45,944 nucleotides of DNA from a virus. The stretch is from positions 1-45,944 of IMG/VR virus record IMGVR_UViG_3300027970_000046. One strand, written 5' to 3'. A model generated the notes under the pieces. It ran no database searches. It was given only the letters and a program-made list of their open reading frames with translations, and was not told where the DNA came from. How positions within the stretch are numbered: position 1 is the first letter of the stretch; the number at the start of each line of letters is the position of its first letter. Positions 32,943 through 45,944 of this stretch are shown piece after piece. Made by a program: the position numbers and the translations under genes.

Positions 32943-32945
32943 TAT

Positions 32946-33918: not shown

Positions 33919-33936
33919 AATTACCCCCAAGTTTTT

Positions 33937-33977
33937 AGTATATCATAAAAATAGCCCCTATGCAAATATAGGGGCTA
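33937..33977 (-). terminator. terminator directly followed by an extended -10 promoter
   Basis: On the minus strand TAGCCCCTAT (33968-33977) pairs with ATAGGGGCTA (33952-33961) around a 6-base loop and is followed by TTTTTAT. TGATATACT (33937-33945) starts just after. It would end the upstream fibre transcript and restart a new one for the zinc-ribbon gene. Confidence 0.75.
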
Positions 33978-33991
33978 ATAGTTAAAATAAA

Positions 33992-34174: not shown

Positions 34175-34183
34175 ATTTCTCCT

Positions 34184-35101
34184 TTAGTAATAAATCTTAA
34201 TCGCCCCAGCGCCACCAGCGCCGCCAATTACGGTTGATGATCCACCGCCAGCACCGCCGCCGCCAGCACCACCATTTTTATCATTTGTAGCAGCAATCCA
34301 TCCACCGCCGCCGCCGCCAGTTGAGGAAGTGTTTGAGGTGCTTCCAAAATTTGCTCCGCTATATATACCACTTCCGCCATTACCGATTTGGTGACCGCTA
34401 GTTCCGCCCTTACCACCTCCACCACCACCTGCATAATTACCATTTCCGCCAATTCCACCATTGGCGCCGCTGCCTCCGCCACCGCCGCCAGATAAATATT
34501 GCGAACCACCTTCTCCATTAAAACCCTGATTGTTAGTACTGCCTGCGCCCATAGCAGAAAATACTATTCCATACTCTCCACGTGTATTATCAAAAGCATT
34601 TCCTCCTCTACCAGATAGACCAGCACCGCCACCTGGAATAGCGTTGCCATTGCCTGTAACTCCAGAAGTTCCTCCTCCTGCGCCACCAATAGATCCTTGG
34701 CCACCATTTGGACCAACAGTTATAGCGAAAGATATTCCTGGTGCACCACCACCAGCCGATTCGGTTGAATAATATGTAATTCCACCATAGCCACCATCTG
34801 AAAAACTATTTCCGCTTCCAGTTGGCGCTGTTCCTCCAGCGCCTATTACTGCAGAATTTGATGCTATGACCCATCCTGTAAAAACTCCACCAGCACCGCC
34901 GCCGCCGCCGCAAGACCTTGCATTGTTATTAGTTCCACCACCATGGCCGCCGCCGCCGCCGCCGCCAATCATTTCAGCATAAACATACTTAACATCTGCG
35001 GGAATTCCAATATTGTTTGTTGTAGAGTTAATAGTATGACGAAGTTCAATTTTAGTCATATCAAATCCTGCTGCTGCAGGTGGAAAGACTTCAATACCCA
35101 T
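34184..35101 (-). CDS. glycine-rich tail adhesin
   Basis: This is a 305-residue protein. The N-terminal 45 residues (MGIEVFPPAAAGFDMTKIELRHTI...PADVKYVYAEMI) form a beta base, and the remaining 260 are Gly-rich (GGGGGGGHGG..., GGGGGWIAATN) and end GGAGAIKIYY. Such Gly-rich domains form polyglycine-sheet receptor-binding tips in phage adhesins. It stands in cassette order after the 104-residue beta protein and before a small assembly protein. Confidence 0.8.
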   Translation of the reverse strand: MGIEVFPPAAAGFDMTKIELRHTINSTTNNIGIPADVKYVYAEMIGGGGGGGHGGGTNNNARSCGGGGGAGGVFTGWVIASNSAVIGAGGTAPTGSGNSFSDGGYGGITYYSTESAGGGAPGISFAITVGPNGGQGSIGGAGGGTSGVTGNGNAIPGGGAGLSGRGGNAFDNTRGEYGIVFSAMGAGSTNNQGFNGEGGSQYLSGGGGGGSGANGGIGGNGNYAGGGGGGKGGTSGHQIGNGGSGIYSGANFGSTSNTSSTGGGGGGWIAATNDKNGGAGGGGAGGGSSTVIGGAGGAGAIKIYY

Positions 35102-35112
35102 TTTTTATCTCC

Positions 35113-35427
35113 TTATACTATTTCTACGCCAGCAATATGAAAATTAACTGTTGTAGCAGATGCTGATCCAGAAATTGTTTTTGGTGTTGCGTTTGCATCT
35201 AATACCTGCTTTAAATCAATAAAAGCAGTTGTATTTGCTGCTACTGATACCGCCGAAAGTGCTGCTACGCCATCTAAATTTACTGTAGCAGTTGCTGAAG
35301 AAGCAGCGGTATTTGTAATTGCAATATTTGTAACTACTGTTGTAGTAGATGTTGTTGGAACTGTATAAAGAGTAGTGTTGCTTGTTGCTGCAGCACCTCT
35401 AAATAGTGTTTTACTTGTTGTAGCCAT
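35113..35427 (-). CDS. small beta-sandwich fibre-associated protein
   Basis: This 104-residue protein (MATTSKTLFRGAAATSNTTLYTVPTTSTTTVVTNI) is a paralogue of the 31780-32109 protein and takes the same cassette position, between an LMGA fibre and an adhesin. TATAAT without the TGn extension lies at 35448-35453, and GGAGGTAG precedes the start codon. Confidence 0.75.
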   Translation of the reverse strand: MATTSKTLFRGAAATSNTTLYTVPTTSTTTVVTNIAITNTAASSATATVNLDGVAALSAVSVAANTTAFIDLKQVLDANATPKTISGSASATTVNFHIAGVEIV

Positions 35428-35461
35428 TAGTTACTACCTCCAGTAGTATTATAAGACATTT

Positions 35462-35911
35462 TTAGTATGCCCCCATTAGTGTCATGATTCTTAGATCCTC
35501 TACCTGGGCGGTAGTAGCCAAAGTAACTGTTCCAGTTGGAACTGTAACAGTACCAGAATTAGAAATAGAAGAAATAATTGGGGTTGTTAAAGTTTTATTT
35601 GTTAGGGTTTGAGCGGTATTTAAATCTACCGTCACTGTTGTATCAATAGCAATTGAAGGAATTGGACCTGTACCATTTGTTACAGTAATGCCTGTTCCTG
35701 ATGTTACCGCCGTAATATCGCCAGTCTCACCGCTATTAACCCAGTTTGTACCATTGTACATAAGTACTTGGTTTGTTGCAGGGGTAGTTAAAACAACATC
35801 TGTTAAATCTTCTAAAGACTGTGTTGCTAAACCAAGAAGGGGAAACCAAGTATCTACATCTGCGTCATATACATACCCTGGTTTTGGATCGGTAGTGTTA
35901 ATAGTTGCCAT
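35462..35911 (-). CDS. tail fibre protein ending in LMGAY
   Basis: This 149-residue protein starts ATINTTDPKPGYVYDADVDTWFPLLGLA, followed by a short ITAVTSGTGITVTNGTGPIPSIAIDTTVTV module shared with the 37407-38651 fibre and a TLTNKTLTTP stretch. It ends RIMTLMGAY like its paralogue at 32143. TGATATAAT at 35939-35947 and a GAGGAG site precede it. Confidence 0.8.
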   Translation of the reverse strand: MATINTTDPKPGYVYDADVDTWFPLLGLATQSLEDLTDVVLTTPATNQVLMYNGTNWVNSGETGDITAVTSGTGITVTNGTGPIPSIAIDTTVTVDLNTAQTLTNKTLTTPIISSISNSGTVTVPTGTVTLATTAQVEDLRIMTLMGAY

Positions 35912-35938
35912 TATATCTCCTCTGGTTTATTATATCAG

Positions 35939-35947
35939 ATATTACTC
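35939..35947 (-). promoter_or_regulatory. extended -10 promoter candidate before 35911 gene
   Basis: TGATATAAT on the minus strand, 27 bases before ATG 35911 and overlapping the end of the preceding gene. Confidence 0.55.
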
Positions 35948-36265
35948 TGATACCTGGATTTCTTCCCAGTTTAAGATTTCTTCGTTCCATTCATAATACC
36001 GTGGATTTTCTTCGTCAAAAGCAGGGTATGAAACAGGTGCTTCCCACTCATTTAATTCTTCATTTTTAATCCAAGAAGAATATGGTTGAGGTGTCCAAAA
36101 CTTGGCGCCATCATATGTACCCCCTATAAAAGCATTATCTACTTGTAATATTAAATCAACATTATGAATTTGTTTAAATGTGTTTATTGTATCCTCTGTT
36201 GGATCATCAAAAACAGCAACATTTACGATCAAATCGTTTTTTATAAATGCATAGTTTTTTTCCAT
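35942..36265 (-). CDS. fibre assembly-type protein
   Basis: This 107-residue protein starts MEKNYAFIKNDLIVNVAVFDDPTEDTINTFKQIHNVDLI. The second half (GGTYDGAKFWTPQPYSSWI...EWEAPVSYPAFDEENPRYYEW) carries Trp- and Pro-rich repeats typical of small proteins encoded after phage fibre genes. It follows a Gly-rich adhesin. Confidence 0.7.
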   Translation of the reverse strand: MEKNYAFIKNDLIVNVAVFDDPTEDTINTFKQIHNVDLILQVDNAFIGGTYDGAKFWTPQPYSSWIKNEELNEWEAPVSYPAFDEENPRYYEWNEEILNWEEIQVSE

Positions 36266-36275
36266 TTTTTTCCAA

Positions 36276-37394
36276 TCACTTTACGTAAATTACAACTCGT
36301 CCTGCGCCACCACTTCCACCAGTTCCTCCTCCTAGAGAAGAGTCTCTTGTTTCACCACCGCCGCCACCACCGCCGCCGCCAGGTTGTCCACCAACATTAC
36401 CAAGTCCTCCTTGATTTTGGTTAGTGTTTGCGCCAGCGCCACCATTGCCACCAAAAGATAAGCCACCGCCGAATCCACTATTAGCGTTGTTTCCTCCAAT
36501 ACTAGTACCGCTACCACCACCGCCGCCGCCGCCGCCCCAAGATGAAAGGTTTAAATTAGTGGCAGTAGTCATAATAGTTCTAGAACCGCCTGCGTTTCCG
36601 CTTCCACCTTGTGTAATCCTTCCTTGGCCACCATTGCCACCAGAGTATGTAGTTGCTCCACTTACATTAGAACCACCAGAACCAGCATTACCTCCTAAAC
36701 TTTTATTTCCGTCACCAACCCTATTTGGGCCAAAAAATCCACCATTACCGCCGTTTGCGTTAGCAATTGTGGTTCCGCTTCTTACTAAAGTGCTTACTCC
36801 ACCAGCAGGGGCCTGATTGCTTGCTCCACTCCAGGCTCCACCACTTCCAACAGTAACAGAGATAGTGTCTCCAGGATTAACAGAGTATCCAGAAAATGCA
36901 ACACCACCGCCTGCACCACCGCCACCACCACCGTTAGAGTCTCCTCCTCCACCAGATGCACCTCCACCTACAATAAAGGCTGCAAGAATATTTTTACCAG
37001 CAGGCATTGTAAATGTTCCAGATGCATTAAATGTTTGTTGCAACGTATATGGAGGATTTGGTTTTACTGACCCTGAAGCAGAAGAAGCATCAGAAGTTCC
37101 AACAGCATTTGTAGCAGTCATTGTAAAAGTATAATTTGTATCTTCAACAAATGTTCCTGTTACGGTTATCGATCCATCTAGGTCAGTATTTGTAAATGTT
37201 AAAGCAATTGATGGTGATGAAGTAAATCCAATAGTTGTAATTGGAGCGCCATTGTTTGAGCCAAGGGTATAAGTAATAGTCACTGATGTATCAGACGCTC
37301 TTGTTACGCTATTAATAGTTGGTGCATTAGGCTTACCAGCACCTTGAAATCCAAGACCTCTTACACTTGCTGTTCTTCCACCAATAATAGGCAT
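36276..37394 (-). CDS. glycine-rich tail adhesin with fibronectin-like domain
   Basis: This is a 372-residue protein. Residues 15-110 (PTINSVTRASDTSVTITYTLGSNNGAPIT...VTGTFVEDTNYTFTMTATNAVG) form a fibronectin III/Ig-like domain. Residues 115-145 form a beta base (TFNASGTFTMPAGKNILAAF), and the rest is Gly-rich, ending GRVVIYVK. It is the largest of three Gly-rich adhesins here. ATG follows AAGGGG. Confidence 0.8.
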   Translation of the reverse strand: MPIIGGRTASVRGLGFQGAGKPNAPTINSVTRASDTSVTITYTLGSNNGAPITTIGFTSSPSIALTFTNTDLDGSITVTGTFVEDTNYTFTMTATNAVGTSDASSASGSVKPNPPYTLQQTFNASGTFTMPAGKNILAAFIVGGGASGGGGDSNGGGGGGAGGGVAFSGYSVNPGDTISVTVGSGGAWSGASNQAPAGGVSTLVRSGTTIANANGGNGGFFGPNRVGDGNKSLGGNAGSGGSNVSGATTYSGGNGGQGRITQGGSGNAGGSRTIMTTATNLNLSSWGGGGGGGGSGTSIGGNNANSGFGGGLSFGGNGGAGANTNQNQGGLGNVGGQPGGGGGGGGGETRDSSLGGGTGGSGGAGRVVIYVK

Positions 37395-37406
37395 CTATTA
37401 TTCCCC

Positions 37407-38651
37407 TTATGCAAATTTCGTCTGAGAACCAAATGCTGTAAAAGCAGCGTTTCCTGTCTTTACGATTGTGTATGAATAAATATCAATGCTGCTTGTATTA
37501 CCCGCTGATGGAGCAGTACCATTCTGCCATTTAGGAGTTACAGCATTACCATCAACTTGGAATCCTGTTTGATAATAAGCAGTTGCTCCGTTTGTTACAA
37601 AGAATACCACTGTAATAGAATCATTTGTAGCAAGCATTGTATTTAGCGATGTAGATCCATCTCCACGAACATTTAATGTCCAGTTACCAGTAGCATTAGA
37701 TGTGTAATATAAAATACCGCTTGTATTTGCATCAAAGTTAATTGTTCCAGTTGCAGCGGCAGCAGCAACATTCCAACGCTCTTCTGGAGAACGAAGAATA
37801 GGTGTTGTATTTAATGCACTTGTAATTGTTTTGTTTGTTAGTGTTTCGCTACCCGCTAAAGATGCAAAGTCCGCATCTGTAAGAGCAGTGTTGAACTCAG
37901 CAAGAGTTCCACTAACTGTGTTTGAACCAAGTGCAAGTGTTTTATTTGTTAAAGTTAATGTATTGTTTGTTGTAGCAACAACCGCTGTATCTACTGCAAC
38001 AGATGGAATTGGACCAGTACCATTTGTAACTGTAATTCCTGTACCAGATGTTACGGCTGTGATATCTCCAGTGTCATTTGCAATCCACTCAAGTCCACTT
38101 GTTGTTGCTGAGTTAACAGCCAAGATGTATCCATTAGTTGATGCAGTGTTCAAAACTGAAGCGGTATCGTTAGCAGTTCCTACTAAAATATCTCCCTTAG
38201 CAGAAATAACTGCTTGTGGAATAAAAGGATTTGCTGTAATTGAAGTTGGATCTTTATCTACCCAAATTACACCAGTTGAAAGATCTGATGTTGGAACAGA
38301 GTTTGTAAATACTGAAGTTGCAGAAATTGGTTGTCCACCAATTGTTCCATCTTGATCTACCCAGATATATCCATTAGGAATTTCTGCAGGAGTAAAGTCT
38401 CCTGGTACTGGTACGTTAACGGCAACATCTCCACCAGATGATGGACGATTTTCTAGATCAACGATGTCTTGCTGAATATCATAAATTGTTTTTGCCATTG
38501 AAGGCGTAACAAGTGAGCCAGGTGATGTGTTTGCTGGATTATAAGCATATTCTCCATAGTGATATACACGAAGAGCAGCCTGAATATCTGCTGCATCTGC
38601 ATAGCCTGGGATTGCTGTTGGAATTAACGCTCCAATTGATTCTGCTGCCAT
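37407..38651 (-). CDS. tail fibre protein
   Basis: This is a 414-residue protein. Residues 1-70 (GALIPTAIPGYADAADIQAALRVYHYG...IYDIQQDIVDLE) are helical and look like a baseplate-binding head. Then come fibre modules shared with the 780-residue fibre (GTLAEFNTALTDADFASLAGSETLTNKT) and a distinct C-terminal domain (RWNVAAAAATGTINFDANTSGILYY...WTLNVRGDGS), a common phage fibre tip. ATG follows AGAGGTG, with TGGTATAAT at 38676-38684. Confidence 0.8.
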   Translation of the reverse strand: MAAESIGALIPTAIPGYADAADIQAALRVYHYGEYAYNPANTSPGSLVTPSMAKTIYDIQQDIVDLENRPSSGGDVAVNVPVPGDFTPAEIPNGYIWVDQDGTIGGQPISATSVFTNSVPTSDLSTGVIWVDKDPTSITANPFIPQAVISAKGDILVGTANDTASVLNTASTNGYILAVNSATTSGLEWIANDTGDITAVTSGTGITVTNGTGPIPSVAVDTAVVATTNNTLTLTNKTLALGSNTVSGTLAEFNTALTDADFASLAGSETLTNKTITSALNTTPILRSPEERWNVAAAAATGTINFDANTSGILYYTSNATGNWTLNVRGDGSTSLNTMLATNDSITVVFFVTNGATAYYQTGFQVDGNAVTPKWQNGTAPSAGNTSSIDIYSYTIVKTGNAAFTAFGSQTKFA

Positions 38652-38675
38652 TTAGATTTCACCTCTTAATCCAAA

Positions 38676-38684
38676 ATTATACCA
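38676..38684 (-). promoter_or_regulatory. extended -10 promoter candidate before 38651 fibre gene
   Basis: TGGTATAAT on the minus strand, 24 bases before ATG 38651, next to the stop of the preceding gene. Confidence 0.55.
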
Positions 38685-38687
38685 TAG

Positions 38688-39284
38688 TTATGGGACTATA
38701 GTAATTTGTAAATGGGTTGTAACTTCCACTCCGCTAGTATATGTTCCAGTATCCCCTAGGGGTAACCAAGTAGAAGTGTCATATTCTACAGCGTGTAAGT
38801 TGATTATTAAATTGCTACCCGCCAAAGCAGGGATTTGCATTGAGGAAGCAATAGGGTTTTGATATGCAATGCTATATTTAACATTAAAATTTTCTGCAGT
38901 TAGCGGGGTACCAGAAACAGTAACAATATCCTCTACAGGTATTACTATCTGAGCATCTCCATCTTCAAAGGTAGTTATATGATTCTCTGAATAAATAGTA
39001 GGATTTATATCCAATACTTCTACCCAGGTATTTCCACCAGGTTCTGCTACATATTGAAAAATATATCCATAGGTAGCACTTGGAGAAACGTTTACATAAA
39101 GATCATTAAGAATTAAGGTTTGTCCACCTAGTTCTCCACTAGAGGTTTGAGCATTTGGATCACCAGATCCTACAAAGAATTTATTTCCACGAGTACCCTG
39201 GGCTCCAATATCAAGTTGGAGTTCAATTACACTTGGGGGTCCAAGTACGGTGACATCATCGTTAGATAATAATACATCTACCAT
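38688..39284 (-). CDS. baseplate / fibre-associated protein
   Basis: This 198-residue protein starts MVDVLLSNDDVTVLGPPSVIELQLDIGAQGTRGNKFFVGSG, a start pattern seen at the base of phage fibre loci, followed by a beta domain. Its ATG overlaps the stop of the ATT-start gene as TAATG and no ribosome site is visible, so it depends on translational coupling to that gene. Confidence 0.7.
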   Translation of the reverse strand: MVDVLLSNDDVTVLGPPSVIELQLDIGAQGTRGNKFFVGSGDPNAQTSSGELGGQTLILNDLYVNVSPSATYGYIFQYVAEPGGNTWVEVLDINPTIYSENHITTFEDGDAQIVIPVEDIVTVSGTPLTAENFNVKYSIAYQNPIASSMQIPALAGSNLIINLHAVEYDTSTWLPLGDTGTYTSGVEVTTHLQITIVP

Positions 39285-39631
39285 TATGCAGCGCCTGTAA
39301 CCTGCTCAGTTACTGTAATGGTGCCAGTAAGCAAAGTGAATACAAGGGATGGTCCATTTTCAATTTGTACGTCATAAACATATGTACCAGCATCAAGAGT
39401 ATTTCCAACACCTGGCAAAATTGTGCAAGTAACAGTATCGTTTACGGAATTTACTACAGCCTGTGCTTCAACGCTAAATGTTGGATTATCTCCACGACTT
39501 GATGCAATAAAAAATTCAGCATCATAACCAGTTAAATCAAATGCTCCACCATTAGAAGTCTTTGGGCGAATAACAAATTCATTGGTGTCTGCCTTATAAT
39601 ACGAAAAATTATAGGTACCTGGGAAACTAAT
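39284..39631 (-). CDS. BppU-like baseplate protein with a probable ATT start
   Basis: This 115-residue frame reads SFPGTYNFSYYKADTNEF, GGAFDLTGYDAEFFIAS, then DAGTYVYDVQIENG and ends TGTITVTEQVTGAA, a clear upper-baseplate Ig-like protein paralogous to 40404-40814. An in-frame TGA lies seven codons before SFPG and no ATG, GTG or TTG lies between. The only start-like codon is ATT at 39631, placed 6 bases after AAAGGAG. The promoter TGCTATAAT (39655-39663) and that ribosome site lie inside the end of the upstream HNH gene, whose stop overlaps the ATT by 5 bases. Confidence 0.8.
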   Translation of the reverse strand: MSFPGTYNFSYYKADTNEFVIRPKTSNGGAFDLTGYDAEFFIASSRGDNPTFSVEAQAVVNSVNDTVTCTILPGVGNTLDAGTYVYDVQIENGPSLVFTLLTGTITVTEQVTGAA

Positions 39632-40268
39632 GGTATTCTCCTTTGCTCAAATAGATTATAGCATATTTGAGGGTATCAATACTATCTCTAGATTGACCTA
39701 TGAGAAAATTGCACCCAGCACAAAGCAGACCACGAACGCACTTCCCACAAGAACTTGTCTTATCGCAACAAGAATGATCGTGATCTATATAAAGACCTCT
39801 TTTAAAAGTAGAAACGTCTAGTTTGCATATTGCACATGAGTTGTTCTGATTTTGTAAAATCATAGAATATTTTTCTTCAGTTAGCCCATGTTTTAATATA
39901 TTGTATCTTTTAAGTCTTTTTTTAAACATTTCAGGCTTTTCCTTTTGATGTTTTATTGTTCTTGCTGAGGCACATTTACGACATAAATTTGCATATCCGC
40001 TTTTCATTGATTTTTCTTTAACAAACATTTTTTCACGTTCTATATCGTCTTTAGGCTTTAATCCACAGTCTTTACATTTAGTGCTTTTATCAGGGTATTG
40101 ATAAGTACCGTTTCTTTTTTGCCTATTTACCTCAGCATTACAGGCTTTACAGGTAGCCTTTGTAAAATAAAAATTTGACTTCTTTTTATCAGATACAAAA
40201 AGTTTTAAATCTATAATTGATTTTGCTTCAAACTTACATCTAGTGCATTGTCTTAGTGTCTTTTCCAT
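39627..40268 (-). CDS. HNH endonuclease, endonuclease VII-like
   Basis: This 213-residue protein has two or three N-terminal Cys-pair knuckles (CTRCKFE, CKACN, CKDCG, CRKCA) and a C-terminal endonuclease VII core: CAICKLDV, then YIDHDHSCC, CGKCVRGLLCAGCNFLIG. It is close in layout to the 20659 endonuclease. TGATATAAT ends 6 bases before ATG (leaderless). Its 3' end carries the promoter and ribosome site of the next baseplate gene, as after a recent insertion. Confidence 0.9.
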   Translation of the reverse strand: MEKTLRQCTRCKFEAKSIIDLKLFVSDKKKSNFYFTKATCKACNAEVNRQKRNGTYQYPDKSTKCKDCGLKPKDDIEREKMFVKEKSMKSGYANLCRKCASARTIKHQKEKPEMFKKRLKRYNILKHGLTEEKYSMILQNQNNSCAICKLDVSTFKRGLYIDHDHSCCDKTSSCGKCVRGLLCAGCNFLIGQSRDSIDTLKYAIIYLSKGEYH

Positions 40269-40274
40269 AATTTG

Positions 40275-40283
40275 ATTATATCA
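40275..40283 (-). promoter_or_regulatory. leaderless promoter candidate of HNH gene
   Basis: TGATATAAT on the minus strand is followed by 6 bases and ATG 40268. Confidence 0.6.
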
Positions 40284-40305
40284 CAATATAATCTGGAAAT
40301 GATAC

Positions 40306-40407
40306 TTATGCTTCTACCTTAAATACTTCATCGTTAACTTTAATAAGCGGCGGAAGTAGATCGTTACTGTCATCAACCTTAATTACGGGCGGTAGCGAAA
40401 CTGTCAT
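40306..40407 (-). CDS. 33-residue mini-protein with PP.IKV repeat
   Basis: A small frame codes for MTVSLPPVIKVDDSNDLLPP and then LIKVNDEVFKVEA, an imperfect internal repeat (PPVIKVDD / PPLIKVND). ATG overlaps the previous stop as ATGA and follows a strong AGGAGG site inside the preceding gene. The strong site and the overlap support translation. Its role is unknown; by context it belongs to the baseplate. Confidence 0.6.
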   Translation of the reverse strand: MTVSLPPVIKVDDSNDLLPPLIKVNDEVFKVEA

Positions 40408-40814
40408 AAACTTCCTCCTGGAGTTACATCACCTAGTACACTAATTGTACCAATAACTGGTGTCCAAATTGTCGGATTTGCTAAATTGTTTCCAATTTGC
40501 ACAGATAGATCAAAAGATAATTCTGCAACAATATTTTTATACCCCGTTCCCCATCTTTGGGTAATATCACATTCGGCGGTAATCACTACAGATCCCGTTG
40601 TAGCGGTCACATCAAGGTTATCTAGCACATCACCTAGGGGATCATAAACTGTGGCCTTATAGGTCCAGTCAGAGGTGTCAAAGGGGGTAGTCTCATCAAG
40701 TTCTAGAAAGTCAACTGTCAAAGTTGCGGTATCGCCACGAACCACTCGCCACTGAATGTTAGCAGGATTAGCGCCATATTTTTCTATATCATTTGAGCAG
40801 CAAGAGTTAGCCAT
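40404..40814 (-). CDS. BppU-like baseplate protein
   Basis: This 136-residue protein has IQWRVVRGDTATLTVDF, DTSDWTYKATVYDP and ends TPVIGTISVLGDVTPGGSL, the same layout as the 27896 and 39284 proteins. It carries an extra N-terminal Cys pair (SCCSND). TGATATAAT ends 8 bases before ATG. It is the first gene of the tail fibre block in transcription order. Confidence 0.75.
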   Translation of the reverse strand: MANSCCSNDIEKYGANPANIQWRVVRGDTATLTVDFLELDETTPFDTSDWTYKATVYDPLGDVLDNLDVTATTGSVVITAECDITQRWGTGYKNIVAELSFDLSVQIGNNLANPTIWTPVIGTISVLGDVTPGGSL

Positions 40815-40822
40815 AATGTTTG

Positions 40823-40831
40823 ATTATATCA
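40823..40831 (-). promoter_or_regulatory. leaderless promoter candidate opening the fibre block
   Basis: TGATATAAT on the minus strand with 8 bases to ATG 40814, directly after the structured RNA element. Confidence 0.6.
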
Positions 40832-40910
40832 TAAAATAAGGCTGAAACCCGCTAGGAGCAGTGGGGGTGGGTAGAGAGCAACCTAGCGGGCCAGCACATT
40901 GATTATAACA
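40832..40910 (-). ncRNA. candidate small structured RNA with own promoter
   Basis: TGTTATAAT (40902-40910, minus) predicts a transcript start near 40895. From there GCTG-g-CCCGCTAGG (40895-40882) pairs with CCTAGCGGG-ttt-CAGC (40856-40841), 13 base pairs in two blocks, around a 25-base C-rich loop containing CTCTCTACCCACCCCCAC. A TTATTTT run follows near 40832-40839. Promoter, hairpin and T-rich end in about 65 bases suggest a small RNA, or a terminator for the upstream gene. No tRNA or known RNA family is recognised. Confidence 0.5.
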
Positions 40911-41122
40911 TTTCTTTATTATGAAAACGGACAAAAGGTATAAAAACTTTTAAACCAGACAGTATTTCTAAACTGTTATCAAATTGTTATAAAGAAAAAA
41001 CGGTATAAAGTTGAAAACTGTAAAACCAGAGTGTATAATTGAAATATATAAAAGAAAAGAATATACTAACTATTAAGATATCTTTTAATATATTATATTA
41101 AGTACTATAGTATAATATATAG
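40911..41122. other. AT-rich gap before the plus-strand HNH gene
   Basis: No gene is seen. Two imperfect direct repeats (GGTATAAA...AACT.TAAA(A)CCAGA) lie near 40934-40960 and 40999-41030. At the right end TATAAT (41111-41116) is followed by 6 bases and the HNH ATG, a leaderless promoter on the plus strand. Confidence 0.5.
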
Positions 41123-41524
41123 ATGAAACTTTGTCCAAAATGTAAAATAAATCCACGTCATAAAAAATTAGGATATTGTCACCCATGTCAAAAAGAATAT
41201 TTAAGACAATATAATAAAACCGAAAAAGGTAAAGAAAAAATAAAACTATCTGTTAGGAAAATTCAAAGAGAAAGAATTGGCTTTACAGAGGATATATTTA
41301 ATCAAATGCTCAAATCTCAAAACATGTCCTGTGCGATATGTGGTGCATTAACGCCATCAAAAAATAATAAAAGAGACTGGCATTGTGATCATGACCATAA
41401 AACCAATAAACCTAGAGGTATTTTATGTGCTGGATGCAACACACTTTTAGGTAGACTAGAGTCTGTAGGGTTTGACTGGGTAGATAAGGCAAAAAATTAT
41501 TTAAATAAGGATATTACTTCTTAG
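41123..41524 (+). CDS. HNH endonuclease, endonuclease VII-like
   Basis: This 133-residue protein starts MKLCPKCKINPRHKKLGYCHPC (Cys knuckle). It has CAICGALT, WHCDHDHKTNKPRGILCAGCNTLLG and a helical end, so it is a compact endonuclease VII/HNH enzyme. TATAAT at 41111 lies 6 bases before ATG. It is convergent with the membrane protein gene and overlaps its end by 11 bases. It is more AT-rich than its neighbours, suggesting a mobile gene. Confidence 0.9.
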   Translation: MKLCPKCKINPRHKKLGYCHPCQKEYLRQYNKTEKGKEKIKLSVRKIQRERIGFTEDIFNQMLKSQNMSCAICGALTPSKNNKRDWHCDHDHKTNKPRGILCAGCNTLLGRLESVGFDWVDKAKNYLNKDITS

Positions 41525-41741
41525 AATGATCTGCAAGGTGTTCAATCATCATATCAAAAACCTTGTCCATTTTATCCTCAAGCCGTGTTACTTGATCTTT
41601 CATTGATGTTCCACTATTTGGCTTTAATTCGGACAAAATATCCTCAACGTATTTTTTCACAATCCACCTTCCGACAAGTCCGACGGCGCCAAGAATGGAT
41701 ATAACCGTTAATATAAATCCAGCCCAATCTTGTGCAGTCAT
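41514..41741 (-). CDS. small membrane protein, holin-like candidate
   Basis: This is a 75-residue protein. Residues 4-27 form one transmembrane helix (WAGFILTVISILGAVGLVGRWIV), followed by a charged coiled-coil tail (MKDQVTRLEDKMDKVFDMMIEHL). Size and form fit a one-helix holin or spanin-like lysis protein of Gram-positive phages. It is not next to the lysozyme gene, so the role is uncertain. TGATATAAT (41749-41757) ends 7 bases before ATG. Confidence 0.6.
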   Translation of the reverse strand: MTAQDWAGFILTVISILGAVGLVGRWIVKKYVEDILSELKPNSGTSMKDQVTRLEDKMDKVFDMMIEHLADHSKK

Positions 41742-41748
41742 GAGAGAA

Positions 41749-41757
41749 ATTATATCA
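41749..41757 (-). promoter_or_regulatory. leaderless promoter candidate of holin-like gene
   Basis: TGATATAAT on the minus strand with 7 bases to ATG 41741. It is divergent from the zinc-ribbon gene promoter. Confidence 0.6.
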
Positions 41758-41830
41758 TTATTTGAGATTAAATTCGGGCGGTATACAACAAAGCCGAAAA
41801 TAGATATTCAAACCACACCCTAGACAATCT

Positions 41831-41880
41831 ATGAATGAAACATTCATTATGTCTGGTTATGTAGGTGTCTAAGGTATAAT
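41831..41880 (+). promoter_or_regulatory. palindrome and leaderless promoter of 41888 gene
   Basis: ATGAATG-AAA-CATTCAT (41831-41847) is a perfect palindrome with 7-base arms in the gap between divergent genes, a possible operator. TATAAT (41875-41880) is followed by 7 bases and ATG 41888. Confidence 0.5.
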
Positions 41881-41887
41881 GGCATAT

Positions 41888-42097
41888 ATGGAAAATAACC
41901 AGGATGAAGTAAGGCCATGGGATTTATTAAATCCTAATAAACCTAGAAGTTCAGAAGAATTGGCTGAATACCGTTTGGAAATTTGTAGGGCTTGTCCTAT
42001 GTACCGTCCAAAATCCAATACCTGTAAAAAATGTGGATGTTTTATGAAATTGAAAACTCAATTGGAACATGCTAAATGTCCTATTGGGAAATGGTAG
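41888..42097 (+). CDS. small zinc-binding protein
   Basis: The product has 69 residues from ATG 41888; the ATG at 41879 overlaps the -10 box and cannot be used by that promoter. It has ICRACPMYRPKSNTCKKCGCFMKLKTQL and CPIGKW at the end, a compact Cys-rich fold widely found in phages and of unknown role. Five of its six Cys fall into C-x2-C and C-x-C groups. Confidence 0.75.
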   Translation: MENNQDEVRPWDLLNPNKPRSSEELAEYRLEICRACPMYRPKSNTCKKCGCFMKLKTQLEHAKCPIGKW

Positions 42098-42118
42098 ATT
42101 TTTTATATACCGCTTTAA

Positions 42119-42304
42119 TTACATGCACTCAACACAATAGTTAGTTATACGACGATTTGATTCAGAAACAAATATGGACCTTCCACAATGAAAACATCTG
42201 GATTCTTGAACATTGGAAAAGTTCATAATATTTTTATACCTGTTTGTATAAAACAACATTGTAATGGTCCAGGTGAGAAATATAATCAATAGTATTTTTA
42301 TCAT
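42119..42304 (-). CDS. membrane-anchored zinc-ribbon mini-protein
   Basis: This is a 61-residue protein. Residues 2-19 form a transmembrane helix (IKILLIIFLTWTITMLF), then CFHC and CVEC make a zinc ribbon on the cytoplasmic or outer side. TGATACAAT (42311-42319) ends 6 bases before ATG (leaderless). Function unknown. Confidence 0.65.
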   Translation of the reverse strand: MIKILLIIFLTWTITMLFYTNRYKNIMNFSNVQESRCFHCGRSIFVSESNRRITNYCVECM

Positions 42305-42316
42305 ATATTTATTGTA

Positions 42317-42502
42317 TCAGATACTCCACCAGCCTCTTATAGTACCCCCATCTATTGGGCATATATACTCTTTGTTTTTACCAGATGCATAATATTCTAC
42401 AAATAGTTTATGGGATAGATCTAGATCAGGTTCATGGGTATACCGCCCACAATCAGGGCATGTTTCATGATGAACATATTGGAAGATATGGATACAGGTC
42501 AT
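42317..42502 (-). CDS. zinc-ribbon mini-protein
   Basis: The product has 61 residues from ATG 42502. A longer frame reaches 42541, but TATAAT (42509-42514) lies in that part, 6 bases before ATG 42502, which decides the start. It has HHETCPDCGRYTHEPD and ICPIDGG, a Cys pair plus His/Cys ligands. Function unknown. Confidence 0.65.
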   Translation of the reverse strand: MTCIHIFQYVHHETCPDCGRYTHEPDLDLSHKLFVEYYASGKNKEYICPIDGGTIRGWWSI

Positions 42503-42519
42503 GATTTTATTATACCCTG

Positions 42520-42563
42520 GAAAATCTGAATATTTTTTCATTTTATGAAAATCTGAATATTTT
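42520..42563. repeat. 17-base direct repeat pair
   Basis: GAAAATCTGAATATTTT occurs at 42520-42536 and 42547-42563, 27 bases apart, upstream of the 42502 gene. It may be a protein-binding site or the trace of a small duplication. Confidence 0.6.
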
Positions 42564-42647
42564 GCTGAGATGTATGATGCAGCATTTTGAAAAAAAATAA
42601 TAAAATAATTAGTGCGACCACCTTATGAGATCCCACAAGGGGGGACA

Positions 42648-42830
42648 TCAGCGCATTGGCGCTGTGCCCTGTATGTATCCATCTAATCCTAACAAATCAC
42701 AAGTAATTTTTACTCTTTGATTTTTTCTTAGAGATTTTTTATACAAGTCTATAAAATAATAAACATTTTCTTTAGTAGGCAAATCCATTTTCATTTCTTT
42801 GCCGTTCATGCTAGTTATTGTTAGTTTCAT
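42648..42830 (-). CDS. small unknown early-type protein
   Basis: The product has 60 residues from ATG 42830, preceded by AAAGGGTATCAG. Earlier in-frame codons up to 42887 run through a hairpin (CCCACC...GGTGGG, 42880-42899) and are less likely. It reads MKLTITSMNGKEMKMDLPTK, then YYFIDLYKKSLRKNQRVKI. No family is known. It is the last gene of the leftward early cluster. Confidence 0.6.
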   Translation of the reverse strand: MKLTITSMNGKEMKMDLPTKENVYYFIDLYKKSLRKNQRVKITCDLLGLDGYIQGTAPMR

Positions 42831-42935
42831 CTGATACCCTTTCGTTTTCGTAATGTGTTCTGTCATAGTTAGCAAGTGTCCCACCATTGGCTAGGTGGGC
42901 TATCCTGCGTAATTGTTCATCTGAGTAGGTAGCCA

Positions 42936-43046
42936 CTATGCTACACACTCGCAAGGCTCAACGCCGTAATCGTTATCATCTCCGTAGAAAATAACGCCGT
43001 GTCCGTAGCACTCATCACAATTTATTCTATCTATTGCGTTTATCAT
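42936..43046 (-). CDS. 36-residue CxxCxGxG zinc mini-protein
   Basis: It reads MINAIDRINCDECYGHGVIF, then YGDDNDYGVEPCECVA, with CDECYGHG as a DnaJ-type Cys motif and a final CEC. The 45407-45625 protein has the same plan (AIRNCNACEGKG...WGNGDDYDFETCEC), so the two are paralogues on opposite strands. The ribosome site AGAAAGGAT lies at normal distance from ATG. Confidence 0.65.
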   Translation of the reverse strand: MINAIDRINCDECYGHGVIFYGDDNDYGVEPCECVA

Positions 43047-43048
43047 TT

Positions 43049-43207
43049 TTACTTATCCTTTCTTACTGATAATACATTGTAGGTAGCGTCTTTTTCTACT
43101 ACCTGTAATTCTTTCATAAACTCTAGTAATTCTTTTGTAGATGTAAAAGTTTCTACACCTAATACCTTAGTTTTCTTACTATTCCAAATTGCTATTTCTA
43201 TTTTCAT
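43049..43207 (-). CDS. 52-residue unknown early-type protein
   Basis: It reads MKIEIAIWNSKKTKVLGVET, then FTSTKELLEFMKELQVVEKD and ends VLSVRKDK, an alpha/beta mini-protein. ATG follows AGAAAGGATAACTAAGAAA, the early-gene ribosome-site pattern. Its end overlaps the ribosome-site region of the next gene. Function unknown. Confidence 0.65.
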   Translation of the reverse strand: MKIEIAIWNSKKTKVLGVETFTSTKELLEFMKELQVVEKDATYNVLSVRKDK

Positions 43208-43232
43208 TTTCTTAGTTATCCTTTCTTAATTC

Positions 43233-43391
43233 TTAAAGTGTAGCAGGAGATACTGACATCTCCACCACATCAAATCCATTGGATACTAGGGTATCCATTA
43301 GGTCATTTATCATAGACTCATTTATCATAAGTCTATCTGAGACGGAGACTAGAGAGCCGTCTTTCTCTACTGTATAACTTAGGTTTAGCAT
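43233..43391 (-). CDS. 52-residue unknown early-type protein
   Basis: The product starts at ATG 43391 (MLNLSYTVEKDGSLVSVSDR), preceded by AGAAGGTAGCAAA. The frame is open to 43448, but that upstream part is the PafBC-type promoter itself, so an upstream start is unlikely. It is the first gene of the leftward early cluster. Function unknown. Confidence 0.65.
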   Translation of the reverse strand: MLNLSYTVEKDGSLVSVSDRLMINESMINDLMDTLVSNGFDVVEMSVSPATL

Positions 43392-43425
43392 TTTGCTACC
43401 TTCTTTCTTTCTGTTTAATACTGTA

Positions 43426-43447
43426 AGTCTATCTCTTGCCACTGACA
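43426..43447 (-). promoter_or_regulatory. PafBC/RecA-NDp-type early promoter, leftward
   Basis: On the minus strand TGTCAGTG, an 8-base spacer and TAGACT match the actinobacterial RecA-NDp pattern TGTCRGTG-N8-TAGNNT at every fixed position. CAGTAT follows, where transcription would start, and ATG 43391 comes about 35 bases later. Confidence 0.75.
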
Positions 43448-43456
43448 TTTTGGGGT

Positions 43457-43510
43457 CTTATTCGCTTAGGCTCACTGTGATACTGGTCACATTTATTTGC
43501 TAAGGCTCAT
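43457..43510 (-). repeat. leader repeat pair, minus strand
   Basis: On the minus strand ATGAGCCTTAGCAAATAAA (43492-43510) and GTGAGCCTAAGCGAATAAG (43457-43475) flank a CRP-like palindrome. The same motif occurs twice on the plus strand at 43768-43816. Both copies lie in the transcript expected from the 43542 box. Each can be read as a five-codon frame (MSLSK, MSLSE). Confidence 0.65.
43476..43491. promoter_or_regulatory. CRP/GlxR-like palindrome 1
   Basis: TGTGATACTGGTCACA is an exact TGTGA-N6-TCACA site, the consensus of cAMP-receptor proteins (CRP, GlxR). It lies between the two minus-strand leader repeats. Confidence 0.6.
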
Positions 43511-43541
43511 ACCTTGCTTCTTTATTTTTTTGTATAATGGA

Positions 43542-43550
43542 ATTATAGCA
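43542..43550 (-). promoter_or_regulatory. extended -10 promoter candidate, leftward early
   Basis: TGCTATAAT on the minus strand. Its transcript would run through both leader repeats and the PafBC-type promoter before reaching ATG 43391, a leader of about 145 bases. Confidence 0.55.
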
Positions 43551-43600
43551 GAGATAACCCCAAAAATCAAATCCAAACACGGCGTGTCGCAAACAATTTC

Positions 43601-43616
43601 TGTGGTGTTCATCACA
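43601..43616. promoter_or_regulatory. CRP/GlxR-like palindrome 2
   Basis: TGTGGTGTTCATCACA has one mismatch to TGTGA-N6-TCACA. Its centre is roughly 73 bases upstream of the transcript start expected for the 43542 box, a distance used by class I CRP activation. Confidence 0.5.
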
Positions 43617-43621
43617 CCTGG

Positions 43622-43642
43622 TTATTCACATAGTTATCCACA
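43622..43642. other. two DnaA-box-like sequences
   Basis: TTATTCACA (43622-43630) and TTATCCACA (43634-43642) both match TTATNCACA in the same orientation, 12 bases apart. Such pairs mark DnaA-dependent origins in bacteria and plasmids. Confidence 0.55.
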
Positions 43643-43653
43643 GGCTCGGGGGG

Positions 43654-43669
43654 TGTGATGCTTATCACA
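43654..43669. promoter_or_regulatory. CRP/GlxR-like palindrome 3
   Basis: TGTGATGCTTATCACA is an exact TGTGA-N6-TCACA site, 12 bases after the DnaA-box pair and about 50 bases before the PafBC-type promoter. Confidence 0.6.
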
Positions 43670-43718
43670 AAAATTCTTTTTAAGAATGTCTATTTTATAC
43701 CGTTTTGTTCTCGCAAAA

Positions 43719-43740
43719 TGTCAGACCCCCCTGATAGACT
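43719..43740 (+). promoter_or_regulatory. PafBC/RecA-NDp-type early promoter, rightward 1
   Basis: TGTCAGAC, 8 bases and TAGACT on the plus strand match TGTCRGTG-N8-TAGNNT except for the seventh and eighth bases. TCCAGTAT follows. Its transcript would include the plus-strand leader repeats and the 43844 gene. Confidence 0.7.
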
Positions 43741-43760
43741 TCCAGTATCAAAATTAAATA

Positions 43761-43822
43761 GTGCTAAATGAGCCTAGCAAATAAGTCTAGAAATAGAATG
43801 AGCCTAGCAAATAAGTTAGCAC
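43761..43822 (+). repeat. leader repeat pair closed by an inverted repeat, plus strand
   Basis: ATGAGCCTAGCAAATAAGT occurs at 43768-43786 and 43798-43816, identical over 19 bases and 30 bases apart. GTGCTAA (43761-43767) and TTAGCAC (43816-43822) enclose the pair as a perfect 7-base inverted repeat, so the leader RNA could fold around both copies. An open frame MSLANKSRNRMSLANKLAHD starts at the first copy and overlaps the next gene. Confidence 0.7.
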
Positions 43823-43843
43823 ACGATAAGAAAGGAAAACTAA

Positions 43844-44023
43844 ATGACTACAATTGAAATTGTATTAGAAAATGGTTTTAACATTCAAGATAAGATTTGC
43901 GTATTTTGCTCAAATACCCTTGACCGTTGGGATCAATTCTGCCACTCTTGCCAAGAGTATAAAGGCGTGATGAATGTCGTTGACGCCGTAGACTACTACG
44001 GAGTAGACATCTTGGGTGTGTGA
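43844..44023 (+). CDS. 59-residue zinc-ribbon early protein
   Basis: It reads MTTIEIVLENGFNIQDKICV, then FCSNTLDRWDQFCHSCQEYK and ends DILGV. CVFC and CHSC form a zinc ribbon. ATG lies 7 bases after AAAGGA. It is the first gene after the rightward PafBC-type promoter, and its stop overlaps a CRP-like palindrome. A longer frame on the other strand over this place is judged a shadow. Confidence 0.75.
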   Translation: MTTIEIVLENGFNIQDKICVFCSNTLDRWDQFCHSCQEYKGVMNVVDAVDYYGVDILGV

Positions 44024-44034
44024 GGTAAATCACA
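44019..44034. promoter_or_regulatory. CRP/GlxR-like palindrome 4
   Basis: TGTGAGGTAAATCACA is an exact TGTGA-N6-TCACA site over the stop codon of the 43844 gene. A weak -35/-10 pair (TTGACT, then AATAAT about 17 bases later) follows at about 44057-44086, before the 44111 gene. Confidence 0.5.
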
Positions 44035-44110
44035 CGCCACAAGCGTGGGTCTAATTTGACTTTAACGCTAAAAAATGAAATAATAAATTTATAAAGAAAG
44101 GTAAAACTAA

Positions 44111-44308
44111 ATGAAAACTTATTCAATTCCAGACCTATTGGTGGGTCAAACTTACTACCCTCGCTCTCTTGCGAGAAAATACCAATACGGCGAAATTACT
44201 TTCGCTGAGAAGCGTGAGGATATTTATTTATCTAAGGGCTATGAAGCCTACGCAATTAAATTCAATGGTCATCGTTGGGCTACTATCGCAGTAAAGGTGG
44301 CAGACTAA
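44111..44308 (+). CDS. 65-residue unknown early protein
   Basis: It reads MKTYSIPDLLVGQTYYPRSL, then RKYQYGEITFAEKREDIYLS and ends WATIAVKVAD, a small alpha/beta fold. ATG follows AGAAAGGTAAAACTAA. Its stop overlaps the next ATG (TAATG). Function unknown. Confidence 0.75.
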   Translation: MKTYSIPDLLVGQTYYPRSLARKYQYGEITFAEKREDIYLSKGYEAYAIKFNGHRWATIAVKVAD

Positions 44309-44427
44309 TGAAACTAGATGAATTCAAGGCTCTTATTGAGAGCCAGCGCAAAGCGCAACAATTGACAAACTTAGAGAAAATCGCTAAAATAGTATCAACA
44401 ACAAATACCAAGAAAGGTAAAAACTAA
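44308..44427 (+). CDS. 39-residue unknown early protein
   Basis: It reads MKLDEFKALIESQRKAQQLT, then NLEKIAKIVSTTNTKKGKN, a charged helix. ATG overlaps the preceding stop, so translation is coupled. EKIAKI recurs as ERIAKI in the 45190 protein. Function unknown. Confidence 0.6.
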   Translation: MKLDEFKALIESQRKAQQLTNLEKIAKIVSTTNTKKGKN

Positions 44428-44429
44428 CT

Positions 44430-44636
44430 ATGAAATCTATAACACACTCGCTACAATTCGTCACGGAATTAGACGAAAATCACCCAACTGCTAAGCAGTT
44501 TCTTACTCTTGATGAGATAACACAAATTGCTTTTCTTGAAAGTATGCTAAAAGAAATTCTTGCGCCTGCTATCAAACCTGCTCTTGATGAAATCAATGAA
44601 GGCAATTCTTGGGCTCTACTAAAGGTGGCTGAATAA
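44430..44636 (+). CDS. 68-residue unknown early protein
   Basis: It reads MKSITHSLQFVTELDENHPT, then AKQFLTLDEITQIAFLESML and ends WALLKVAE, mostly helical and acidic. ATG follows AGAAAGGTAAAAACTAACT. Function unknown. Confidence 0.7.
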   Translation: MKSITHSLQFVTELDENHPTAKQFLTLDEITQIAFLESMLKEILAPAIKPALDEINEGNSWALLKVAE

Positions 44637-44828
44637 ATGATGACACGAAAAGACTATGTCAAGACCGCTGAAATTCTAAAAGGTTTCAGCGAGGAAATTC
44701 ACCCACAAGTTTTTGAGGATTTGGTAGAGGAGTTTTCACAATTCTTCAAGTCTGATAATGATAGATTTGATTTCGCAAGATTTGAAAAGGCTTGCGGTGT
44801 TGATGAGATAGGACTAATTCCAGTATGA
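44637..44828 (+). CDS. 63-residue unknown early protein
   Basis: It starts directly after the previous stop (TAAATGATG); ATG 44637 or 44640 can serve. It reads MMTRKDYVKTAEILKGFSEE, then LVEEFSQFFKSDNDRFDFAR, acidic and helical. The sequence KTAEILKGFSEEIHPQVFEDLVEEFSQFFKSDN resembles small proteins I have seen in actinophage early regions. Its stop overlaps the next ATG (ATGA). Confidence 0.7.
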   Translation: MMTRKDYVKTAEILKGFSEEIHPQVFEDLVEEFSQFFKSDNDRFDFARFEKACGVDEIGLIPV

Positions 44829-44986
44829 CACTTTTAACAACTGACATAATCGCAATAATAATTGCTCTCGTTGGCTTAATTGGAATAACATTTCACGGAC
44901 TAATTACACTAAGAAAATTAGAAAATGAAAATAGAAAATTGCGAAAAGAAAATGCTGAGATGAAATGGAATCAAATAAAAGTTTGA
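44825..44986 (+). CDS. 53-residue membrane protein with coiled-coil tail
   Basis: It reads MTLLTTDIIAIIIALVGLIG, then ITFHGLITLRKLENENRKLR and a charged end. Residues 6-28 form one transmembrane helix, and the tail is a coiled coil (LENENRKLRKENAEM). ATG overlaps the preceding stop. Function unknown. Confidence 0.65.
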   Translation: MTLLTTDIIAIIIALVGLIGITFHGLITLRKLENENRKLRKENAEMKWNQIKV

Positions 44987-45026
44987 TTTAAAAATTGCAA
45001 CTTTAATTTAAATAATTAGGGTTGCA

Positions 45027-45090
45027 AAAATCCCGAGGGGTTTTCCACAGGTTATCCACAATGTGAATTAAGACACAATTACGGGATTTT
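45027..45090. other. second DnaA-box-like cluster inside an inverted repeat
   Basis: AAAATCCCG (45027-45035) and CGGGATTTT (45082-45090) form a perfect 9-base inverted repeat. Between them lie TTTTCCACA (45041-45049) and TTATCCACA (45052-45060). Two one-mismatch CRP-like sites, TGTGAATTAAGACACA (45062-45077) and TGTGAGATTCCCCACA (45090-45105), overlap or follow. The gap of about 200 bases has no gene. Confidence 0.5.
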
Positions 45091-45131
45091 GTGAGATTCC
45101 CCACATTTTTTGGGCGTGTCTAATTGTAAAT

Positions 45132-45153
45132 TGTCAGTAGAAAATGATAGGAT
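45132..45153 (+). promoter_or_regulatory. PafBC/RecA-NDp-type early promoter, rightward 2
   Basis: TGTCAGTA, 8 bases and TAGGAT on the plus strand, 36 bases before ATG 45190. TACAG follows where transcription would start. Confidence 0.7.
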
Positions 45154-45189
45154 TACAGAGTAATAAAATGAAAGAAAGGATAACTTAAA

Positions 45190-45351
45190 ATGACAGTTAT
45201 TGAAAAAATGGAAAGAATTGCTAAAATTGAGCAATTAGCAAAAGATAAATACGGAGATAAGTATATTTATGGTCTTTGGGGAAGCGCACAGAGTTTTCTA
45301 ACAGAGCAAAACTTAGAAATTATGGAAAGAGTTTTTGGTAAGGAGATTTGA
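45190..45351 (+). CDS. 53-residue unknown early protein
   Basis: It reads MTVIEKMERIAKIEQLAKDK, then YGDKYIYGLWGSAQSFLTEQ and ends MERVFGKEI. ATG follows AGAAAGGATAACTTAAA. It is the only gene between two PafBC-type promoters. Function unknown. Confidence 0.7.
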   Translation: MTVIEKMERIAKIEQLAKDKYGDKYIYGLWGSAQSFLTEQNLEIMERVFGKEI

Positions 45352-45354
45352 AAA

Positions 45355-45376
45355 TGTCAGACCCTTATGATAGGAT
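45355..45376 (+). promoter_or_regulatory. PafBC/RecA-NDp-type early promoter, rightward 3
   Basis: TGTCAGAC, 8 bases and TAGGAT on the plus strand, followed by TTCAGTATAAACAGAAAG. That tail is nearly identical to the start of the leftward promoter's transcript (TACAGTATTAAACAGAAAG), so the repeated unit includes the early leader. Confidence 0.75.
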
Positions 45377-45406
45377 TTCAGTATAAACAGAAAGAAGGAA
45401 AGAAAA

Positions 45407-45625
45407 ATGGATAAACTAGATTATGCGTTAAACGCAATTCGTAATTGTAATGCTTGCGAGGGTAAAGGTAATCTCTATTGGGGAAATGGTGATGACTATG
45501 ATTTTGAAACTTGCGAGTGTAATCCCTATGAACTAATCTTAGATGATGACGGAGATGTTATTTGGGACAATGGTTTGCTAAGCGAACCTGAATTGGCTAT
45601 CTTTGGAAATAGAGAGGCTAACTAA
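45407..45625 (+). CDS. CxxCxGxG zinc protein, acidic
   Basis: This 72-residue protein has CNACEGKG (residues 14-21) and ETCEC, the DnaJ-type Cys plan, followed by a very acidic tail (LILDDDGDVIWDNG). It is paralogous to the 36-residue protein at 42936-43046. ATG follows AGAAGGAAAGAAAA. Function unknown; such mini-proteins can bind zinc and could inhibit a host protein. Confidence 0.75.
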   Translation: MDKLDYALNAIRNCNACEGKGNLYWGNGDDYDFETCECNPYELILDDDGDVIWDNGLLSEPELAIFGNREAN

Positions 45626-45626
45626 A

Positions 45627-45926
45627 ATGGGAAGTAATTTCGCAACAGAAATGGCAGACGGAACTCTTGCTGAATTGGGTATCCAATTAGATATTGAAAC
45701 ACAGATAGCAATTCACTTATCTGCTAATCACTACCCGCCAATTCCTAAAACTATGGTTCAGCCTTGTATTGAAGCAATTGACGCCGTAAATGACTTAGGG
45801 CTATGGGACTTAGAAATACCTATGCCTGAAGGAATAACCTATAAGGGTTTGACTACTGCCCCTGCTTGGGCTATTGTTGAACAACACCACCTTGATGCGT
45901 GGCTTATTGAAAGAGAGGAATACTAA
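45627..45926 (+). CDS. unknown early protein
   Basis: The product has 99 residues from ATG 45627, one base after the previous stop; an in-frame TTG upstream lies in that gene. It reads MGSNFATEMADGTLAELGIQ, then LDIETQIAIHLSANHYPPIP and a helical, Trp-containing end. Function unknown. Confidence 0.7.
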   Translation: MGSNFATEMADGTLAELGIQLDIETQIAIHLSANHYPPIPKTMVQPCIEAIDAVNDLGLWDLEIPMPEGITYKGLTTAPAWAIVEQHHLDAWLIEREEY

Positions 45927-45927
45927 A

Positions 45928-45944
45928 ATGGAATATAACTATGT
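45928..45944 (+). CDS. start of a further early gene (partial)
   Basis: ATG 45928 follows the TAA of the preceding gene by one base, with AAGAGAGGAA upstream. Five codons (MEYNY) are visible before the window ends. Confidence 0.5.

Follow-up and report, generated by a model that had tools for sequence, protein, structure and literature searches.

The window, that is, the whole stretch of DNA that was analysed, is a linear IMG/VR virus record of 45,944 bases with 38% GC. Between 43.4 and 45.1 kb it holds a divergent early-type control region from which small genes exit both ways, to the left through the ORF 43233–43391, whose start is an internal Met, and to the right through ORFs from 43844. 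Elsewhere in the window, a ribonucleotide reductase gene (PHROG 367; 21273–23294, –) lies inside the structural gene region, two small Cys/His-rich proteins resembling HNH endonucleases are encoded on opposite strands (39627–40268, –; 41123–41524, +), and very glycine-rich tail-type proteins are found at 29524–30000, 34184–35101 and 36276–37394 (–), the antisense strands being open and proline-rich. The nearest named phages are Streptomyces phages of the Stanwilliamsviridae (portal 45–47%, capsid protein 40–44%), and megablast found no named phage resembling positions 30000–45944. The portal is identical in an IMG/VR record of 101,845 bases (G021), where the control region lies at about 16–21 kb; similar IMG/VR records reach 117 kb, the actinophage group being of about 102–117 kb, and WhiB, which marks actinophages, is present in 15 of the 25 phage records tested. 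The portal match to large records, together with WhiB, therefore indicates that the window is only part of the genome of a large actinophage of freshwater type. GC content is 34–42% in nearly all related loci and, taken with WhiB, the type of DnaA box and the literature on freshwater actinophages (PMC6802176, PMC10202952), points to Nanopelagicales as the presumable host.

The control region contains a repeat of 37–39 nt matching the consensus of the mycobacterial RecA-NDp (P1)/PafBC promoters, tTGTCRgtg-8nt-TannnT (PMC5656591), whose spacing is common to the phage promoters: the candidate promoters of the window have TGTCR and TANNNT separated by 11 nt. All +1 positions given here are predicted from the –10 hexamer, +1 being set seven bases past the last base of TANNNT. 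The leftward promoter P_L (TGTCAGTGGCAAGAGATAGACT, TGTCR-N11-TANNNT; 43426–43447, –), recognised from inverted repeat I1, the motif scan and the published consensus (PMC5656591), has its predicted +1 at 43419 and runs into the ORF 43233–43391. An exact CRP/GlxR-type palindrome (TGTGATACTGGTCACA, 43476–43491) is centred at –64.5 of P_L and is flanked by two copies of a phage-specific repeat, TGAGCCTAAGCGAAT (43460–43474, –) and, on the opposite side, TGAGCCTTAGCAAAT (43495–43509, –). Further to the left, a PafBC-type promoter without palindrome (TGTCAGTATCTCCTGCTACACT, 43237–43258, –) precedes the ORF 43049–43207 and is conserved at position 1640 of L233, the corresponding locus of G021.

On the rightward side, the element GGCGTGTCG (43581–43589, +), which recurs in related control regions, is followed by a one-mismatch palindrome (TGTGGTGTTCATCACA, 43601–43616) centred at –138.5 of the rightward promoter P_R, a distance at which relatives show a minor peak of palindrome centres (–137 to –140). 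Two DnaA boxes come next (43622–43642, +), TTATTCACA at 43622–43630 and TTATCCACA at 43634–43642, the latter 11 bp before an exact palindrome (TGTGATGCTTATCACA, 43654–43669) centred at –85.5 of P_R. P_R itself (TGTCAGACCCCCCTGATAGACT, 43719–43740, +; direct repeat D2) has its predicted +1 at 43747, and its predicted 5′ leader carries two tandem TGAGCCTAGCAAAT repeats 30 bp apart (43769–43812, +; repeat D9), which are kept in L233. The third exact palindrome (TGTGAGGTAAATCACA, 44019–44034) overlaps the stop of the ORF 43844–44023 and is centred at –64.5 of the next promoter, which is of the sigma70 type (TTGACT-17-AATAAT with an extended –10; 44056–44084, +; predicted +1 at 44091) and precedes the ORF 44111–44308. 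In a second module, the DnaA boxes TTTTCCACA (45041–45049) and TTATCCACA (45052–45060), together spanning 45041–45060 (+), are followed by two one-mismatch palindromes within 45062–45105, at 45062–45077 (–90.5) and 45090–45105 (–62.5), the orthologue of the latter being exact in L237, also at –62.5. The element GGCGTGTC (45113–45120, +), found also at the recA promoter of the candidate host genome G257, and a PafBC-type promoter (TGTCAGTAGAAAATGATAGGAT, 45132–45153, +; predicted +1 at 45160) then lead to the ORF 45190–45351, and one more PafBC-type promoter, without palindrome (TGTCAGACCCTTATGATAGGAT, 45355–45376, +), precedes the ORF 45407–45625.

A count over the whole window recovered exact TGTGA-N6-TCACA at 43476, 43654 and 44019 only, and one-mismatch copies at 43601, 45062 and 45090 only; this is the very set of sites listed in the preliminary description, which had noticed no exact copy elsewhere. 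Exact copies are expected 0.08 times per window, with a maximum of 2 in any of 300 dinucleotide-preserving shuffles, and a 600-bp span with two exact copies arose in 0 of the 300. TGTGA and TCACA were not found in the window with any other spacer from 0 to 19 tried. Two-mismatch palindromes are at background in the window (20 vs 26.5 expected), and the signal thus comes from exact and one-mismatch sites, which cluster at 43.4–45.1 kb. The claimed clustering in the early control region is seen, and an equal frequency along the genome, named beforehand as a refuting outcome, did not occur as far as the window and its relatives show. The proposed identity of the motif holds as well, since TGTGA-N6-TCACA equals the published GlxR consensus (PMC7999487), and the window sites, with their 6-bp spacer, qualify as candidate CRP/GlxR sites.

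Comparison of 21 unique orthologous copies of the 43476 site gave an identity of 99.5% for the arms, 53% for the N6 spacer and 91% for the flanks, which contain the phage-specific repeat; in two orthologues of the 44019 site the arms are 100% and the spacer 58% identical. Constant arms around a variable spacer are the mark of a symmetric DNA-binding protein, not of an RNA hairpin. The phage-specific repeat, TGAGCC(T)(A)AGCAAAT, brackets the left palindrome with two copies 35 bp apart and has a tandem pair in the leader of P_R; it was found 85 times in 39 loci vs 0 for the reversed control, with a spacing of mostly 35, and may be an operator for a regulator of the phage.

Related viral loci were collected as TTATCCACA followed by a palindrome within 30 bp, which gave at least 120 stretches vs 8 when the half-sites were reversed as a control; no viral contig matched the exact composite pattern TGTCAGACCCNNNNTGATAGNNTTNCAGTAT. 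Among the matches listed, the gap between TTATCCACA and the palindrome peaks at 10–14 bp. The 120 viral loci listed, 1.19 Mb in total, contain 477 palindromes vs one copy of the reversed control, and 1022 copies of TGTCR-N11-TANNNT vs 97 for N8; the palindrome spacer is N6 only (N5, 0; N7, 1). The element GGCGTGTCG, noted in the window at 43581–43589 and 45113–45120, has 441 copies in both orientations vs 1 for its reversed control in the same 120 loci, again among the matches listed. Several loci encode, directly after the palindrome-promoter module, a protein with a MAH(D/N)LE start similar to that of a DUF932 gene found among the G021 early genes (L233, 8755–9771). Outside the phages, TTATCCACA, 12 bp and TGTGA-N6-TCACA follow one another in Frankia, Parafrankia and Pseudofrankia loci (L133, L134, L150, L160, L169 and others), conserved among these Frankia relatives in a gene context other than that of the phages, and Acidobacteriaceae, Halomonas and Methyloglobulus have each their own locus of this type.

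Most palindromes of the phage loci are tied to a promoter. Among the matches listed, 367 of 472 (78%) have their centre at –50 to –100 of a TGTCR-N11-TANNNT promoter, compared with 6–28 (1–6%) when the palindromes are shifted by 150–500 bp as a control. In the listed loci the centres peak at –54.5, –64.5, –74.5 and –84.5/–85.5, one helical turn apart, with a Rayleigh z of about 60 at a period of 10.25 bp for the –50 to –100 pairs among 127 dereplicated, which come from related phages and are not independent samples; a minor group at –69.5/–70.5 is out of phase. Seen from the promoters, the 297 dereplicated strict ones include 121 with a palindrome in the 150 bp before TGTC and about 60 with a DnaA-type box. 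Because the 120 loci were selected using the palindrome, the stronger tests are the position of the palindrome and loci chosen independently. G021 and G022, chosen by portal similarity and not by motif, have 8 and 5 palindromes, respectively, vs 0 control matches, with promoter-linked sites at –64.5, –74.5 and –74.5 in L233 (G021) and at –64.5, –74.5, –74.5 and –86.5 in L234 (G022). The palindrome was not found in four shorter portal relatives (G023, G025, G026 and G027), possibly because these records lack this region. Sites of the 44019 type lie at –64.5 of their sigma70-type promoter in the window and L233, at –63.5 in L117 and at –54.5 in L238, where a move by one turn keeps the phase. Judged from these arrangements, the palindromes appear to be the upstream part of predicted PafBC-type promoters, and of a sigma70-type promoter at 44019, at helix-phased distances.

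As regards the protein that would bind them, a PF13545 match is present in 296 of 296 Actinomycetes-class genomes sampled, and each of eight small genomes of host-like size has one GlxR-like CRP with the helix ASRETVNKALADF, identical to the recognition helix of M. tuberculosis CRP in an alignment to PDB structures. The best PDB matches of the CRP of one genome (G155) are M. tuberculosis CRP, and 3r6s, 4byy and 4cyd match too. A cognate CRP with a matching recognition helix is present in the candidate hosts, as the presumed assignment has them, and the lack of a CRP gene in the host, named beforehand as a refuting outcome, did not occur as far as these genomes show. HTH_Crp_2 was absent from 25 phage records, thirteen of them of 96–118 kb and some of them perhaps fragments, which leaves unsupported a CRP-family protein as the phage's own binding protein that was suggested earlier. 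In the host chromosomes, perfect palindromes number 4 in all in 29 small actinomycete genomes vs 9 for the control, and none was found in G257, where sites with two mismatches or fewer are modestly enriched in intergenic DNA (71 of 333, vs 10% of the DNA being intergenic). Among the matches to DnaA box plus palindrome in genome contigs, no freshwater Nanopelagicales host was recognisable. In C. glutamicum, creation of a perfect TGTGA-N6-TCACA raised GlxR binding and promoter activity (PMC7999487); the phage sites would then be perfected forms of sites that are weak in the host.

The two other elements of the phage modules also have host counterparts. A TTGTCAGTGG..TANNNT promoter precedes recA in four candidate hosts (G055, G107, G121, G175), and PafB and PafC were looked for in one candidate host genome, G257 (1.16 Mb, 40% GC), which has a tandem pafB-pafC matching mycobacterial PafB/PafC structures and a TGTCC variant of the promoter at recA. 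The total of PafBC-type promoters in host genomes does not exceed the control (28 vs 34), for which reason only examples that recur across genomes, recA and DUF6504-like, were used. Many candidate host genomes carry TTATCCACA around dnaA, within their first 3 kb, and the TTATNCACA boxes of the phage are of the same type as those of the candidate host oriC.

On these grounds, a host regulator of the CRP/GlxR type probably binds the palindromes as upstream activator elements of early promoters that are mostly of the RecA-NDp/PafBC type. It is conceivable, albeit unlikely, that the sites are instead recognised by a phage-encoded DNA-binding protein outside the CRP family, acting as an early activator or repressor of the phage's own: candidate host chromosomes have almost no perfect sites, yet there are 3–8 per phage record, many small early proteins belong to no known family, and Streptomyces phages, homologous in portal and capsid only, are without the cluster. 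Against such a protein speak the exact CRP/GlxR consensus of the motif, the nearly constant presence of a CRP-type HTH in the host class, and the helix phasing to sigma-type promoters, which is what a CRP activator requires.

The region might also be read as a replication origin, with an initiator complex assembled on the DnaA boxes and palindromes, and with promoters that are incidental or provide activating transcription. TTATNCACA boxes stand at 43622, 43634 and 45052, with one more in the rest of the window, TTATCCACA is present around host dnaA, and the cumulative GC skew is lowest at 44 kb (1-kb marks); however, the skew hardly changes between 37 and 45 kb, with the contig end nearby, there are several modules per genome, each tied to a promoter, many modules are without DnaA boxes, and 78% of the palindromes among the matches listed are linked to a promoter, which makes this reading improbable. 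Equally improbable is that host CRP represses or silences early transcription from these sites, so that the phage waits for a fall of cAMP. Actinobacterial CRPs can repress, and the pir, dam and recE promoters of coliphage T1 are repressed by cAMP-CRP (PMC6737242), but repressor sites usually overlap the core promoter, whereas 78% of the centres here are at –50 to –100 (among the matches listed), and helical periodicity suits activation. That the palindromes are RNA hairpins or terminators can be set aside, for although 43604–43618 and 44033–44047 score as weak terminator-like hairpins, most sites are upstream of the predicted transcript start, T-runs are absent and the arms, at 99.5% identity, have no compensatory change.

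If host CRP activates these promoters, a CRP dimer near the early promoter would occupy a single helix face, placed at –64.5, –74.5 or about –85, and would touch either the alpha C-terminal domain of RNA polymerase or PafBC, a contact that would strengthen transcription of the divergent early operons. PafBC lodges between the DNA of the promoter and the sigma domain normally in contact with –35 (PMC11804915), and would act on the phage early promoters together with host CRP. The adjacent DnaA boxes may be a third host input and, lying just upstream, could add repression, activation or origin function. Early transcription may in this way respond to cAMP or to the carbon state of the host, as the preliminary description supposed; a strict dependence on cAMP does not hold for every actinobacterial CRP. 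More tentatively, the early promoters might read three inputs together, namely host CRP for metabolism, PafBC for single-stranded DNA and damage, the phage's own replication included, and DnaA, with infection tuned to host physiology without a phage regulator.

The likeness to the CRP class I promoters of E. coli CRP, C. glutamicum GlxR (e.g., ldhA) and M. tuberculosis CRP is in the shared consensus, in centres placed upstream of the core promoter in one-turn steps, and in the M. tuberculosis CRP recognition helix of the candidate host CRP. The E. coli class I optimum positions are –61.5, –71.5 and –82.5, and the phage peaks, reckoned from a predicted +1, keep the helical steps but lie about 3 bp upstream of them; this offset may reflect an effect of PafBC or the choice of +1, or may argue against a plain contact of the class I kind. 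Unlike class I promoters, the phage has perfect copies clustered at the early region, and its core promoter is mostly of the PafBC type rather than –35/–10. With respect to mycobacterial RecA-NDp/PafBC promoters, a type also found before recA in candidate hosts, with PafB/PafC in G257, the phage version differs in serving early genes, in an extended TG before the –10, and in its association with a CRP palindrome and DnaA boxes. In coliphage T1, phage genes are likewise under host CRP, together with the phage protein Pir (PMC6737242), but that case is repression in one phage, whereas activation is the presumed mode here, in many related phages with phased perfect sites. The Streptomyces Stanwilliamsviridae phages Annadreamy and Comrade, although nearest among named phages by portal and capsid, are without the palindrome cluster, with 0 and 1 exact palindromes, respectively, and one-mismatch counts at control level.

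Although both CRP sites and PafBC promoters are familiar on their own, a limited literature search found no account of the two paired, or of PafBC promoters in phages, and their regular combination in phages seems not to have been described in the literature searched. The pairing is of clear interest because it is both widespread and testable: two phages of ‘Ca. Planktophila’ are in culture (PMC10202952), so that the sharing of regulators between streamlined hosts and their phages is directly testable. The palindrome plus TGTCAG promoter also provides an alignment-free signature for spotting this phage group in metagenomes. The arrangement of these sites suggests that a widespread group of freshwater actinophages has its first genes switched on by the metabolic and damage regulators of the host. 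Since single-stranded DNA activates PafBC (PMC11804915), PafBC would give phage replication a positive feedback and, if the proposed scheme is true, many phages of the dominant freshwater actinobacteria would tie infection to host metabolic and damage signals.
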